From Candidatus Zixiibacteriota bacterium (GTDB lineage Bacteria > Zixibacteria > MSB-5A5 > GN15 > FEB-12): a stretch of 51,399 nt of DNA. Location: assembly GCA_024280215.1 (NCBI GenBank), contig JAJRQO010000024.1:1-51399 (forward strand). The letters run 5' to 3'. Position numbers and translations under genes: made by a program. Below, in pieces: positions 3,028 to 9,426 of this stretch; position 1 is the stretch's first letter; each line of letters begins with the position of its first letter. The notes beneath the pieces are model-generated. The model was not told the origin of the DNA. It saw nothing but the letters and a program-made list of their open reading frames with translations, and made no database searches.

Positions 3028-4125
3028 CTAAAAATCAAAGACTTTGCGTTTCTCTTTGTCGGAGGTATCTCTAAAATCCCATTTGTTTTCAAGACGAAGA
3101 ACACCACGTGGACAGACATGAGCACACATCCCGCAACCAACGCATGATGCACGTTTGAAGTCTTGGTTGGTCTGAGCGTAGGCACGGACATCGATGCCCA
3201 TCTCACAATAGGTTGAGCAGTTACCGCATGAGATACACATTTCATCCTTGACAGTTATACGGAAGCGTCCGAATTTTTGTATCAAGCCAAGTAAGGCAGC
3301 CATCGGACAGAAGAACCTGCACCAGACTCTACTTCCCATAAGAGGGTAGAGTCCAACACCAAGGACACCCGAGAGCATCGCAACAACTAAGAATTGATAA
3401 GTGCCTTGAATCTTCGAGGCAATCAAATCAAAAGTCGCATAGTTTGTCACCCATTCCCCAGCAGAGTTTTCAAAGTGCAATCCCCAGTTGATAATGACAA
3501 GAGAAGTCGAAAGAATTGCCAGCAGAAGTACGGTGTGAATCGAGATCTGTTCAAATTTCCACGCTTTGACAGATTTGCTTGAAAGCTGACGGAACGGATC
3601 GCCCGCTGTTTCAGCAAGCCCACCGCATCCGCAGACCCATGAGCAGTACCATCGTTTTCCATAGAGTAGGGTCAAAATCGGTGCAACGATGAGAGAACCA
3701 ATAAAAGTGTAGACAATAATTAAGAGTGGATATTCAAAAATATATTTAGGATTAAACAAATCAATCCCTAATGGCCAGAACTTGGCAAAGTTGAATCCTT
3801 TGGATTCAAACAGTCCCATAATTTCAGGAATAGAAAAAGCAAAAATAATTTGAAAAAATATTAATGTAAAAGTTCTAAACTTTTGGTAACGACTATTGCC
3901 ATGAGTGTTGATAAAAAATAATCCACCAGCAACAATCGAAATTGTATAAAGTACACCATACAAGTTCCATTTGCTTTCAAGCCCAACAAAATTTGCCCAA
4001 CTATCTGGAATATTTGTAAAATAAATAAGCAGATAAAATGCAAACAATAAAAACGAAAGAACCCAGGCAATCATCCCTTTAGATTTCAAAGGAGAATTAT
4101 ATGTAGACATCAAACTATTTTGCAT
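3028..4125 (-). CDS. NapH/CcoG-like membrane 4Fe-4S ferredoxin protein
   Basis: A 365-residue membrane protein with about six hydrophobic segments (near 17-36, 55-72, 86-103, 133-155, 195-213, 243-266). It has Cys motifs CSWVCGCGG (161-169) and CRFFCP (269-274), then two classical 4Fe-4S motifs: C297-C300-C303-C307 and CVGCGMCAHVCP at 328-339. This is the layout of NapH, NosR and CcoG (FixG)-type proteins, which pass electrons between a membrane or cytoplasmic donor and a periplasmic enzyme. The start at 4125 follows a GGGGGACAAT site. The gene lies nine bases after the FAD oxidoreductase, so the two are probably co-transcribed and functionally linked. The exact electron partner is an inference. 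The Cys-Gly-Cys-Gly-Gly variant in the first motif is unlike the common CxxxCP. Confidence 0.85.
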   Translation of the reverse strand: MQNSLMSTYNSPLKSKGMIAWVLSFLLFAFYLLIYFTNIPDSWANFVGLESKWNLYGVLYTISIVAGGLFFINTHGNSRYQKFRTFTLIFFQIIFAFSIPEIMGLFESKGFNFAKFWPLGIDLFNPKYIFEYPLLIIVYTFIGSLIVAPILTLLYGKRWYCSWVCGCGGLAETAGDPFRQLSSKSVKAWKFEQISIHTVLLLAILSTSLVIINWGLHFENSAGEWVTNYATFDLIASKIQGTYQFLVVAMLSGVLGVGLYPLMGSRVWCRFFCPMAALLGLIQKFGRFRITVKDEMCISCGNCSTYCEMGIDVRAYAQTNQDFKRASCVGCGMCAHVCPRGVLRLENKWDFRDTSDKEKRKVFDF

Positions 4126-4134
4126 ATTGTCCCC

Positions 4135-5391
4135 CTAAGATACTTTTTGGTTGAGTGTAAATGTTGGCATGAACTCTTCATCATAGAGTGCTTCATGGAG
4201 ATGTTTTAGCACCCATTCAAGCTGACGTTTTTCATCTACCCAATTGACAAGTACACGATGGTCCCATCTTCGTCCGAGCATATTAAACCCAACGACTGTG
4301 TTGTCGGCAAGGTAAGTGATACGAACGGTGTAGTAGGTACCCTCTTCATGAGAGAAGAAATTTTTCTCACCATCCAATTTAAAATTCACAAGCCCAGCAG
4401 TAGTATATTCGATATCAAAAAACTTTGCAGAGTTATAAAATGTACCACGTTTGTAAATTTTCTTCATACCAATCAAATTAGATGCGACGATTCGACCTTG
4501 GTCACGACCTGTGTACCAAAGTTGTTCAGGACGACGGACATTGTTAAACCACATGACTGCGGCACAATCTCCCGCAGTAAAAATATTGTCGTAGTTTGTT
4601 TGAAGATTATCATCTGCGATAATTCCACCTCGTTCATCAAGGGCTACGCCTGAATCTTTGAGCCAGTCGGTTTGGGGACGGACACCAACACAGATAACAA
4701 CTAACTCGCAATTGATAGTTTCGCCGTCACCAGTTTTGACACCGATGACCTTGCCATCTTTGCCAAGTATCTCAGCAAATTCAGTTTTCAAACGGAGGTT
4801 AACTTTATGATGACGTATATGTTCGGCTATGATAGTTCCTTCGGTTTCATTAAGTGCTACAGGCCAGTAAAAATCTTCACGCACTAAAAAAGTAACTTCG
4901 ATACCCGCGAGTAAAAGTACTTCGACCGTTTCGATACCAATAAGTCCACCACCAACAACGACCGCTTTTTTTGCTGTCTTAGCTTTTTCTTTGAGCCATT
5001 GTAAATCTTGCCATGTGACAAAATTACCAACACCATCTAACTCAGAACCTGGCCATCCATACATAGCAGGCAGAGACCCGCAGGCGATAAGTAACTTATC
5101 AAATTGCACCGTCTTGCCACTTTCAAGAGTGAGTTTGTTGGCATCAGGATCAAGTTTACTGACTTTGTCGTTGATACGTTTGAAACCCATTTTTTCATAG
5201 TGGTCTCGTTCAAACGGCTCCACGCATTGTTCACTAAGCTGACCGCATAAGACATACATGAGAGCGGTACGACTAAAATGATGTTCTGTTTCATAGGAGA
5301 TAATTGTAATTTTAGCTTCATCATCATAGTTACGAAGTGAGTTGGCAGCATTGATACCAGCAACGCCGTTACCGATTATGACATAGTGCAT
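4135..5391 (-). CDS. FAD/NAD(P)-dependent oxidoreductase (rubredoxin/nitrite-reductase-like)
   Basis: A 418-residue flavoprotein with an N-terminal FAD dinucleotide motif GNGVAGINAA (near 8-17), a central NAD(P) motif VVGGGLIGIETVEVL and the FAD-contacting segment IFTAGDCA. It lacks the CxxxxC redox pair of disulfide reductases. It therefore fits the NADH oxidase / rubredoxin reductase / NirB N-domain class, which moves electrons from NAD(P)H to a small acceptor. The start at 5391 is chosen for AAGGAG five bases upstream and because the FAD motif follows directly. It lies between the DUF3179 gene and the membrane ferredoxin, suggesting it feeds that ferredoxin. The partner is inferred from position only. 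Confidence 0.88.
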   Translation of the reverse strand: MHYVIIGNGVAGINAANSLRNYDDEAKITIISYETEHHFSRTALMYVLCGQLSEQCVEPFERDHYEKMGFKRINDKVSKLDPDANKLTLESGKTVQFDKLLIACGSLPAMYGWPGSELDGVGNFVTWQDLQWLKEKAKTAKKAVVVGGGLIGIETVEVLLLAGIEVTFLVREDFYWPVALNETEGTIIAEHIRHHKVNLRLKTEFAEILGKDGKVIGVKTGDGETINCELVVICVGVRPQTDWLKDSGVALDERGGIIADDNLQTNYDNIFTAGDCAAVMWFNNVRRPEQLWYTGRDQGRIVASNLIGMKKIYKRGTFYNSAKFFDIEYTTAGLVNFKLDGEKNFFSHEEGTYYTVRITYLADNTVVGFNMLGRRWDHRVLVNWVDEKRQLEWVLKHLHEALYDEEFMPTFTLNQKVS

Positions 5392-5465
5392 ATATGCTCC
5401 TTTTTGTTTTGCTTGATAGTAGCTTAAAGGAGCAATCATTAGCTTGTATTGTAAAGTTTAAACTT

Positions 5466-6419
5466 CTAATTGATTAACTCCGTTTCAGAAAAAAATGAAA
5501 TCCAAGCAAACCAATAGGCAGTTACGACACCAACTGATTTATTATTTTTTAGTTCATTCATATTAATTTTATCTAAGGCATAGTTTGTTTCATAGGCAGC
5601 GATTGTGCCTGATGCTTCATCATAATTGATAACGATTGTTACAGAGTCTGATTTGAATGCGTATGTTTTATTTGCGGTGAGATAGTCTTTTGAGATAGCG
5701 ATAATTTTATCACCATGACGAATACCAAAAACTAAATCTTTGCCACCTAATTTGCTAAACGTATCATCACGTCCGAAAATTCCGAACTTGGTGCTGTCGT
5801 CCATGTATTTTGTATAATGCGAGCTGGCATCACCGAGGATTTCTTTTTTTAACAAACGACCGTTCGGATATTGTTTTTTGAATTCAGCAAAAGTGGAATG
5901 ATGGAAATTGTTAAAGATTGTAAGCGATTTCCCTATTAAATCACCTTGAATTGCTTCGCCTGTGATTTGTGCCCACATTGATTCAGTTTCTAAATCTTGC
6001 ATGACTAAAGCGTCCTGCCAGAGAGAACCAGATGCTTGGAATGTGTGACGAACGGAATCTACATTAGCGGTATACACGATACCAGTATAGCAAAGTGGTC
6101 ACCATGTGACCGTGATAGCTTTTCCATTGATGTAGTCATTGACAATTTCATGTTGGTCAAGATGCCAAATCGAATATGCTTTGGCTTTGTTGCCATCGGC
6201 GACAACAATGACAGGTTCGTTGGCATAGAAGAGTGACTCTGCTTCAGCAATTGAAATAAAAACAGGATCAAAAATTGCAGGGATGTCACCAGGTTTGAGT
6301 AGGGTGTACATCGTGTGTCCCATGACTTCGGTCTTTTTTGGTTCAGGACGTTGGGCAAAAACAGATGATGCTGCAAATGCAACAAAGCAGAAAATCATCA
6401 ACAATTTTTTTGAATGCAT
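5466..6419 (-). CDS. DUF3179 protein, probable selenoprotein (in-frame TGA at 6099-6101)
   Basis: Two adjacent frames in the same phase form one 317-residue protein if the TGA at 6099-6101 is read through. The N-terminal part has a signal peptide (cleavage near Val-Phe-Ala, residue 22) and the DUF3179 segment HEIVNDYINGKAITVTW. The TGA follows at residue 107, then PLCYTGIVYTANVD and the typical QASGSLWQDALVMQDLETES region. The family motif is TWCPLC, so TGA replaces exactly the first Cys, giving U-P-L-C. A hairpin right after the TGA fits bacterial SECIS rules (see 6069-6083). The start at 6419 has AAAGGAA seven bases upstream. I recall public annotations using the label DUF3179 (seleno)protein but cannot check it. 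The alternative is a nonsense mutation in a Cys codon. The predicted location is periplasmic; the reaction is unknown. Confidence 0.8.
6069..6083 (-). promoter_or_regulatory. Candidate bacterial SECIS hairpin
   Basis: On the coding strand the 15 bases starting 15 nt after the TGA form GGUAU-CGUGU-AUACC: a five-bp stem with a five-base loop whose second base is G. The apical loop begins 20 nt after the TGA. Published bacterial SECIS models ask for a loop 16-37 nt downstream with a G among its first two bases. An alternative fold (UAUAC/GUAUA with a nine-base loop) overlaps it. The protein sequence here is also conserved, so some pairing could be coincidental. Confidence 0.55.
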
Positions 6420-6492
6420 AATCGTTCCTTTTAGGTTATGTAGTATTTATAATCAATTAACAGATGTAAGAAGTGAATTGTTCCTGAAAATA

Positions 6493-7605
6493 TCAAGATA
6501 AAGAAAAATCAAGCGATGCGACGATATTGCCGTTGATAATCAGTTCGACTTTGTGTCTCCCCGTATAATGTTTACGAGTCGACATTTCTTTGAATGAATG
6601 TTTTGTTGAGGGAGAAATTTGCTGGTTGCCAGCGATTTTCTTTTCTGAGAGTTTGAAAACTTTGGGGGAGAGTTTGCCGTTTTTTTTCATGTAGTACAAT
6701 TTATAATCAATGCTAAGTTTTTGAGTTTTTGATGATGTTGATAACAAGTCAAAAGTAAAGAAAACTGAATCGCCAATCGATACTTTTTTCTTATCTATTT
6801 TTAATTTCGATATTTCTATTTGCGGGTTTTCGGTGAATCCAAAAAGAGGGAAGACCTCGGGTTGTCCCTTTTTCAAAAGTGTACGGCAGGCATGTTTGAC
6901 AATCCAATTAGTTTCGGGGCAATTTTTCTTGAGCCATTTTTTACCAAGTTTAATCACAGTCATCGGATTGTCTTTAGAAATATCATTGAGATTATTAGCG
7001 ACCGCTTTGCGAACATACAATGAACTGTCCGCTTTCAATTTTTCAAGAAGTTTCAGCACTTCGGTTGGATCTTTTTTGAACTGTTCGACATGAGGCATCC
7101 AGACGCCACGAGGACGGGTTCCTTCTGCGGCAAGGCGACGGACATGTTTGTTTTCATCTTTCACCCAACGATGTAATATTGGCAACATCTTGTCAGTATA
7201 CTGAATCATATAGGGGCGGATTGCAAATTCGGCTGTGCTATAACGAGTAAGCGTTTCCATGGCAGAAACTGACTCATCAAAATGCTCAAGTCCAAATTTT
7301 TCTACATAGGTGAGCAATGCCCAGTTTTCAAATGTTCCAAGATGCGGAGCAGTTTTGCTGATTATTTTGATTGCCTGATTGTACTTTTGAGGGAGAAATT
7401 TTTTGAGGGCATCGGCGATTGCGTTAATGCGTTCTTTGAGTTCAAGAGTAAAGAAATTGTCATTCAGTATAAATGTGGCAAAGCCACCTTGGTCGAACTT
7501 TTTGGAAGCTCGACCAAGTTGTGCAGCTAATTCTTCTACGGCTTGGGCATTGAGTGAATCTTTCCAGAGACCAGTCTCTGGTCGTATCTCAACATCAGGT
7601 GCCAT
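6493..7605 (-). CDS. alkC: AlkC-type DNA alkylation repair glycosylase with C-terminal Ig-like domain
   Basis: A 370-residue protein. Residues about 20-255 form HEAT-like repeats with the AlkC signatures EFAIRPY (126-132), RRLAAEGTRPRGVW (156-169), RKAVANNLNDI (199-209) and WIVKHACRTLLKKG (234-247). Residues about 260-370 look like a beta-sandwich (Ig-like) extension, as described for longer AlkC proteins. The family removes alkylated bases such as 3-methyladenine by recognising DNA without base flipping. The gene starts three bases after the stop of the M3 peptidase gene and has no clear Shine-Dalgarno, so translation is probably coupled. No inducible promoter is visible. Confidence 0.85.
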   Translation of the reverse strand: MAPDVEIRPETGLWKDSLNAQAVEELAAQLGRASKKFDQGGFATFILNDNFFTLELKERINAIADALKKFLPQKYNQAIKIISKTAPHLGTFENWALLTYVEKFGLEHFDESVSAMETLTRYSTAEFAIRPYMIQYTDKMLPILHRWVKDENKHVRRLAAEGTRPRGVWMPHVEQFKKDPTEVLKLLEKLKADSSLYVRKAVANNLNDISKDNPMTVIKLGKKWLKKNCPETNWIVKHACRTLLKKGQPEVFPLFGFTENPQIEISKLKIDKKKVSIGDSVFFTFDLLSTSSKTQKLSIDYKLYYMKKNGKLSPKVFKLSEKKIAGNQQISPSTKHSFKEMSTRKHYTGRHKVELIINGNIVASLDFSLS

Positions 7606-7608
7606 ATT

Positions 7609-9426
7609 TTACGAGAGTTCATCCACTAATTTTACAAACTCATCTACATCGGCAAGAGCAGTGTCAACAGCACCTTTCCAGAATGCTTCTTGTGTTAAAT
7701 CAACACCAAGATGTTTTTTTGTCAACTCTTCAGTTGTCATAGAGCCAGTATCTTTTAAGAGGGCATCATACTTTGCTGAAAATGTAGCACCTTCTTTTTT
7801 GGCTTGGTCATACAAGCCACCAGAATACATAAATCCAAATGTATATGGGAAGTTATAAAATGGTGCTCCAGTAAAGTAGAAATGTAATTTTGAACACCAG
7901 AAAAGTGGATGGTAGCCTGACTCATCAAGCAAATCACCATACGCTTCTTTTTGAGCGACGACCATCAAGTCTTTGAGTTCTTGTGTTGAAAGAACACCAT
8001 CTTTACGTTTCTCATAAAACATTTTATCAAAGAGATAACGAGAATGAATGTCACACATCATCGTGTAAGCACCTTGTAACTTCTGCTCAATGAGCATCAA
8101 TTTTTCCTGCGTATCTTCAGTTTGTGCGAGAGCAGCGTCGGTGACAACAGCTTCGGCAAATGTCGATGCAGTTTCTGCAAGGTTCATTGGGTAACTTTGA
8201 GCAAATGGTGCTTTGTCATTGAGTACCCAGCTATGATAGGCATGTCCAAGTTCGTGGGCAAGAGTGAGTAAGTTTTCATAAGTATTGGCGTAGGTCATAA
8301 ATATTCTTGATTGATTATTTTTGCCCATACCAGTACAGAAGCCACCGCCACGTTTGTTCGGACGATCTTCGGCTTCAATCCAGTTTTTGTCAATAGCCAT
8401 TTTACAAAATGCAGCCATATCAGGTGAAAATGATTTAATATTTTCATAAATAAATTCGGTCGCTTCATCGTATGGATACTGCTTTTCAGCATCACCACAA
8501 GGAGCAAACTGATCGTACCATCTGAATTTATCAATGTTCAATAGTTTTTTCTTGGCATCAATATATGGTTTGAGACGGTGCAGATTATCTTTGATAACTT
8601 TCCACATCGTGTCGAGGGATTTTTGTTCCATGCGAGACATTTTGAGAGGTTCGTATGTTGCCGACTCCCATCCACGACGTTCATAGACAGAAAGTCTGAA
8701 ACCAGCCATAGAGTTTAAAATCATAGCAGCCAGATTTTCACGAGATTCCCATGCTCCAACCATTTTTTCAAAGGCTTGTTTACGGACATCACGGTTAGCA
8801 TCTGACATTTTAGTGGCAAGTTGTCCGAGTGACATTGTCGTAGTTTTGCCATCTTCTTCAAACTCAACTTTGAGCTCGCCTGACATTTTGCTGTAAAGTT
8901 GGTCCCATGCGTGGTAACCATTTACCTCAAGCTCAAGTGCTAATGATTCCATTTCGACAGGCATCTTACTTTTTGCTAAGTCACGCATTTCATTTAAGTA
9001 AAACTGAATTTCTTTTATTTTATCGTGATCAAGAAACTTATTCCAGTTTTCATCAGATTGTTGTAATGCGAGTGATTCAAGGGTCGCTTTGATTTTTTGC
9101 CAACGTGAATAGTAGACCATGCCTTCGCTCTCGATAGCATCGGCTTTGTCGTCGGTTGTGTTTTGCGATGTGAGACATCCAGCGAATGAAAGAATCAATT
9201 CGATATCTTCGCCGAGTGATTGCCATTCTAAAATAAAGTCAACCCAAGTCGTGAGAGATGAATCGTCGATACCAGTTTGCAGTTGACCGATATTTTTTTC
9301 GGCAGTTTCTAAGCGAGTTTTGACAGCATTACGATGTTTTTGGTATGCTTCAGAAGAACTACCACCTTCAAAAATCGAATCTAAATCCCATTTTGGGGCG
9401 GGTTTTGTTTGTGTTGAGGTCGTCAT
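7609..9426 (-). CDS. pepF: M3-family oligoendopeptidase (PepF-like)
   Basis: The 605-residue length is normal for PepF/M3B peptidases. The zinc-binding motif HELGHAYH is at 391-398, followed by a downstream Glu-rich helix (ETASTFAEAVVTDAAL) that supplies the third ligand. It has no signal peptide, so it is a cytosolic metallopeptidase that cleaves short peptides. The start at 9426 has a GGAG site nine bases upstream. The alkC gene follows after three bases, forming a two-gene unit. The whole family architecture is present with no visible damage. Confidence 0.92.
   Translation of the reverse strand: MTTSTQTKPAPKWDLDSIFEGGSSSEAYQKHRNAVKTRLETAEKNIGQLQTGIDDSSLTTWVDFILEWQSLGEDIELILSFAGCLTSQNTTDDKADAIESEGMVYYSRWQKIKATLESLALQQSDENWNKFLDHDKIKEIQFYLNEMRDLAKSKMPVEMESLALELEVNGYHAWDQLYSKMSGELKVEFEEDGKTTTMSLGQLATKMSDANRDVRKQAFEKMVGAWESRENLAAMILNSMAGFRLSVYERRGWESATYEPLKMSRMEQKSLDTMWKVIKDNLHRLKPYIDAKKKLLNIDKFRWYDQFAPCGDAEKQYPYDEATEFIYENIKSFSPDMAAFCKMAIDKNWIEAEDRPNKRGGGFCTGMGKNNQSRIFMTYANTYENLLTLAHELGHAYHSWVLNDKAPFAQSYPMNLAETASTFAEAVVTDAALAQTEDTQEKLMLIEQKLQGAYTMMCDIHSRYLFDKMFYEKRKDGVLSTQELKDLMVVAQKEAYGDLLDESGYHPLFWCSKLHFYFTGAPFYNFPYTFGFMYSGGLYDQAKKEGATFSAKYDALLKDTGSMTTEELTKKHLGVDLTQEAFWKGAVDTALADVDEFVKLVDELS

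Follow-up and report, generated by a model that had tools for sequence, protein, structure and literature searches.

The analyzed window was a stretch of 51,399 nucleotides from a metagenome-assembled genome (MAG) of Candidatus Zixiibacteriota that was 96% complete. It contained a DUF3179 frame of 318 codons running from 6419 down to 5466, with a single TGA at 6101-6099 ahead of the terminal stop. Read through this TGA, the translation was MHSKK...AITVTW-U-PLCYTGIVY...TELIN and the frame was otherwise open; under translation table 11 it was split into two ORFs, 6099-6419 and 5466-6077. The original prediction had described two intact halves in one frame separated only by a TGA, and both the translation and a Pfam match across the TGA bore this out. 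Its frame and TGA were correct, while the strand, which is minus, had been left out. The PF11376 (DUF3179) profile matched residues 45-313 at 185.6 bits (gathering score 27, E 1.9e-54) and was covered over 3-292 of its 292 positions, with the TGA occupying the first Cys place in W-C-P-L-C. An NCBIfam search with the same protein gave no match. The hydrophobic N-terminus (residues 1-22, ending ...AASSVFAQ) was likely to be a signal peptide or a membrane anchor. Among the genomes searched, the nearest relatives were Candidatus Zixiibacteriota MAGs (79% protein identity in isolate Dive100_bin4.60), and a megablast search for phage gave no match. The features of the locus are collected in Table 1.

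Table 1. Features of the DUF3179 locus, in window coordinates.
Feature	Coordinates	Strand	Basis
Predicted DUF3179 selenoprotein gene, 317 aa, Sec107 (UPLC)	5466..6419	-	translation, Pfam PF11376, model pLDDT 93.3
In-frame UGA, predicted Sec codon 107, first position of C/U-P-L-C	6099..6101	-	homologue alignment
Predicted apical SECIS hairpin, stem 6083-6079/6073-6069, loop CGUGU 6078-6074	6069..6083	-	covariation, codon null
FAD/NAD(P) pyridine nucleotide-disulphide oxidoreductase (Pyr_redox_2), next gene downstream	4135..5439	-	conserved neighbour
Membrane 4Fe-4S protein (Fer4_5), downstream	3028..4125	-	conserved neighbour
AlkD-like HEAT protein, upstream	6493-7605	-	
ORF upstream, M3-type oligopeptidase by reading of the sequence	7609-9426	-	

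A scan of the phylum found DUF3179 in 33 of 132 genomes, and 30 of them had the TGA form. After duplicates were removed, the window protein had 29 distinct orthologues. They came from over 20 genomes sequenced in several projects and diverged to less than 40% protein identity. All 29 carried the TGA at the identical codon (UPLC) and read [TA]W-UPLC. Additionally, seven distant paralogues (L060-L065 and L050) had a TGA at the same alignment column but no second Cys; they read Y-UP[LI], with the motifs UPLQ, UPLK, UPLR and UPIA. Among the non-Sec homologues, 18 of 19 had Cys (TGC or TGT) at this column and the remaining one had Ser. Thus, the expectation that the family carries Cys at this place held, and the alignment put TGA in all orthologues and Cys in the non-Sec homologues at the same column. 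The Cys set included the second DUF3179 of the window's genome (L020, CPLT) as well as plasmid-borne homologues from Thiothrix, haloarchaea, Pseudanabaena and Deinococcus. These proteins shared the family and the motif position with the window protein but had a Cys codon without the SECIS stem after it, where merely 0-3 of the 5 pairs could form. Residues D88, H90 and E91 (window numbering) were nearly invariant within the phylum, in Sec as well as in Cys forms. A maximum-likelihood tree required at least two Sec/Cys changes and kept the two Sec groups separate; since its root was not known, gains and losses of Sec were indistinguishable.

Counting the T of the TGA as 1, the hairpin GGUAU-CGUGU-AUACC had its stem at 19-23/29-33 and its loop at 24-28, and an extra pair (6084/6068) was possible, giving a stem of 5-6 bp. 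It began 15 nt after the TGA, with 20 nt from the UGA to the loop and G at the second loop position, exactly as had been predicted. The bacterial SECIS model calls for an apical loop of 3-9 nt with a G within the first two loop positions (PMC13188914 Fig. 2), a stem of 4-16 bp located 16-37 nt from the UGA, and a free energy of -7.5 kcal/mol or lower (PMC13188914). The window hairpin agreed with this model in its loop and G, stem and spacing. Its energy varied with the folded stretch: when folding started from the UGA, the hairpin was the minimum free energy structure for stretches of at least 45 nt, with pair probabilities of 0.8-0.9, and had -6.9 kcal/mol at 45-54 nt and -8.4 kcal/mol at 57 nt. 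A 55-nt fold with 3 nt upstream of the UGA selected another structure (z = -0.15). The hairpin was thus energetically weaker than the original prediction implied. Moreover, a loose stem, loop and G rule was satisfied by 731 of the 2461 TGAs in the window (about 30%), so a lone hairpin was no better than chance and had been given too much weight. Folding of the single sequence was therefore rejected as proof of a SECIS element.

The comparative evidence for the hairpin was strong. The 5 stem pairs in 35 distinct Sec sequences gave 175 cells, and 99.4% of them were paired, although the sequences are related, so that neither these counts nor those that follow represent independent events. Changes on both sides were seen in 4 of the 5 pairs, with 24 compensatory cells versus 4.8 +- 1.8 in shuffles, and pairing fell to 18-55% when the partner was slid by 1-3 columns. 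RNAalifold recovered the same stem unprompted. Since the stem is also coding, we chose a codon-based null, in which synonymous codons were drawn 5000 times for the 29 orthologues according to each gene's own codon usage. The stem pairs were formed in 145 of 145 cases, versus 107.8 +- 4.4 and a maximum of 122 in the null, which argued that the hairpin is constrained beyond synonymous codon choice. The loop bases G25 and U26 were invariant in the 35 sequences. The genus of the window had GGT...ACC (a U-A pair), and most relatives had GGC...GCC (a C-G pair). The distant Sec paralogues shared the UGA column and the hairpin architecture with the window gene but, in several of them, built the stem from different pairs (GGCUGU...ACAGCC); they also differed in their frames of about 440-480 aa and their separate tree branch. 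Thus, the stem was kept with covariation across orthologues and paralogues, and the SECIS reading was upheld on this ground.

The genome of the window encoded the machinery for Sec insertion. The selA (532 bits) and selB (322 bits) genes adjoined each other on contig C40, which also carried a tRNA-Sec with the anticodon UCA, and selD (372 bits) was located on another contig (L009, G000:C39:48581-49501). The four genes by which the original prediction could be checked, selA, selB, selC and selD, were therefore all found and the Sec pathway was complete. The selD gene had an in-frame TGA within its active-site motif (SCAG-U-ASK), so its product was probably a selenoprotein itself; Sec-containing SelD is a known form of this protein. 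Across the phylum, selA exceeded the cut-off in 116 of 132 genomes and in 25 of the 30 genomes with the TGA-type DUF3179. Because selA was so widespread, its co-occurrence with the TGA form did not discriminate, and we discarded it as uninformative. For the 5 TGA genomes where selA was below the cut-off, three (G078, G087 and G131) had selB or tRNA-Sec above it, and the draft MAGs G054 (85% complete) and G068 (93% complete) had no selA, selB or selC over the cut-off.

Other explanations of the in-frame TGA were also considered. The sequence was a draft metagenome assembly, and a nonsense mutation or a sequencing error might have hit the motif by chance, leaving a pseudogene. However, the identical TGA recurred in all the distinct orthologues described above, across genomes, sequencing projects and large protein divergence, the frame was intact on both sides of it, and the hairpin was constrained, which made a pseudogene extremely improbable. 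A general reassignment of UGA, for instance to Trp or Gly as in NCBI tables 4 and 25, would likewise leave in-frame TGA codons in genes. There were 14 sites in the window where a TGA joined a stretch of at least 60 aa to one of at least 40 aa in the same frame, but beyond the DUF3179 gene none of these ORF pairs was convincing on inspection. Since every orthologue had its TGA at the Cys column and SelA, SelB and tRNA-Sec were present, we considered reassignment hardly credible.

It was just as difficult to believe that the UGA was a true stop, with a hairpin that was merely regulatory and a downstream half that was a separately started protein of 203 aa. A GTG start was available for this half under table 11, but the same GTG encoded Val in the conserved TGIVY and lay inside the hairpin loop. 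A single Pfam domain spanned the two halves, and no orthologue had lost the UGA or the frame. Moreover, the AlphaFold model of the read-through protein predicted one continuous fold with high confidence (pLDDT 93.3) and placed residue 107 at a strand end. Selenocysteine, on the other hand, was supported by the Sec machinery, the Sec/Cys exchange and the covarying SECIS stem. Thus, as judged from sequence comparison, the UGA is almost certainly decoded as selenocysteine, in agreement with the original prediction.

In the corresponding mechanism, the hairpin would recruit SelB with the Sec-tRNA(UCA) to the UGA, and translation past this codon would yield the full-length protein, in which Sec-Pro-Leu-Cys forms a UxxC site. 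The hydrophobic N-terminal segment suggests that the protein is exported. The presence of Sec at the first CPLC position in every orthologue points to a redox role for residue 107. By analogy with UxxC selenoproteins in general, the protein may have a thiol/selenol redox function. Sec107 would then provide the reactive selenol that meets the substrate, and Cys110 would be the resolving thiol for the Se-S bond formed at Sec107. Residues D88, H90 and E91 could tune the Sec site, and those paralogues that lack the second Cys would have to rely on a different resolving partner. Additionally, the order of the M3-like peptidase, the AlkD-like protein, the Sec-DUF3179, the flavoprotein and the membrane 4Fe-4S protein (window 3028-9426, minus strand) recurred at three other loci (L066, L067 and L073), namely in two other genomes of the window's genus and in one genome of another genus. 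The flavoprotein and the Fe-S protein may be redox partners of the Sec-DUF3179, and its electrons could possibly come from them.

The DUF3179 protein contained an internal duplication, with a profile match between residues ~63-121 and 223-281 (probability 93.8, E 1.7e-7); neither Cys nor Sec was present at the site in the second repeat. A sequence search for solved structures found no relative, and Foldseek with the model gave no match at E 0.001. When residues 76-177 of the Sec model (the first half) were compared by VIA-align 2, a Rieske structure was ranked first (2qpz, Z 8.4, rmsd 3.2, 92 aligned), and the second half of the Cys-paralogue model also had Rieske at the top (Z 8.2, rmsd 3.3, 91 aligned), both scores being borderline, near those that a common arrangement can reach. 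The Rieske profile PF00355 did not match the window protein, and the cluster ligands CxH...CxxH were absent from its sequence. We also tried to map CPLC onto the Rieske ligand motif, since D-x-H-x16-U-x-x-C resembled C-x-H-x16-C-x-x-H, and dropped this idea because the resemblance was probably due to chance. Namely, residue 76 of the model corresponded to residue 2 of 2qpz, so that residue 107 would seemingly precede the cluster loops. Moreover, hhalign against Rieske gave a probability of 0.4 for the first repeat and only a weak match (probability 48) for the second one.

Given the borderline scores, the absent ligand motif and a Sec107 seemingly off the ligand position, we tentatively took the Rieske-like fold as a lead rather than a classification. 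A broader and rather doubtful reading would be that DUF3179 is a duplicated Rieske-like beta fold without Fe-S ligands that holds a Cys/Sec site (U/C-P-L-C with nearly invariant Asp88 and His90). Its members would be exported thiol/selenol oxidoreductases with a fold class that has so far gone unrecognised, and their history would include at least two gains or losses of Sec.

DUF3179 selenoproteins of the UxxC/T type were already tabulated in the review PMC9312934 (2022), citing Zhang and Gladyshev 2007 (ref. 63), with an entry from the symbiotic deltaproteobacterium of Olavius algarvensis, and a table in the review PMC13188914 too lists DUF3179 as a UxxC/T selenoprotein family. The original prediction had also suspected a (seleno)protein label in public records. 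Such a label was present in RefSeq/NCBI for some members, where plasmid annotations read 'DUF3179 domain-containing (seleno)protein'. The window protein shared the Pfam family and the UxxC motif with Sec first with the tabulated proteins and differed in its host, Candidatus Zixiibacteriota; the comparison was made by family and motif, as the tables give one accession each with no further detail. A literature search for Zixibacteria and selenoproteins matched a single paper, whose subject was deltaproteobacteria. In the literature searched, which left most subscription papers outside, we did not find descriptions of Sec throughout the orthologues of this clade, of the second Sec lineage, of the internal duplication of DUF3179, or of its tentative Rieske-like fold. 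Thus, this kind of selenoprotein is already known, and the window case is a well-supported new example from an uncultured phylum. It reveals no new decoding mechanism. Standard annotation would split this gene or label it as a pseudogene, which the Sec reading corrects, and Sec-containing DUF3179 appears to be made throughout a clade of uncultured Candidatus Zixiibacteriota. Moreover, a family of unknown function gains a testable active site.

Several minor observations were made among the homologues. L060, the one distant Sec paralogue that was scanned for domains, had a C-type lectin domain at its N-terminus. In several of these paralogues the linker looked dockerin-like. Genome G044 had three copies from this distant lineage. 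In L058 (G098:C270), Ser-Pro-Phe-Ser replaced the motif; this homologue was on a long branch, its genome also had a Sec form, and it is perhaps without the activity of other DUF3179 members. Finally, in the genus g15 the Sec and Cys (CPLT) forms adjoined each other on one strand, a few hundred bases apart (L025, L027, L068 and L070).
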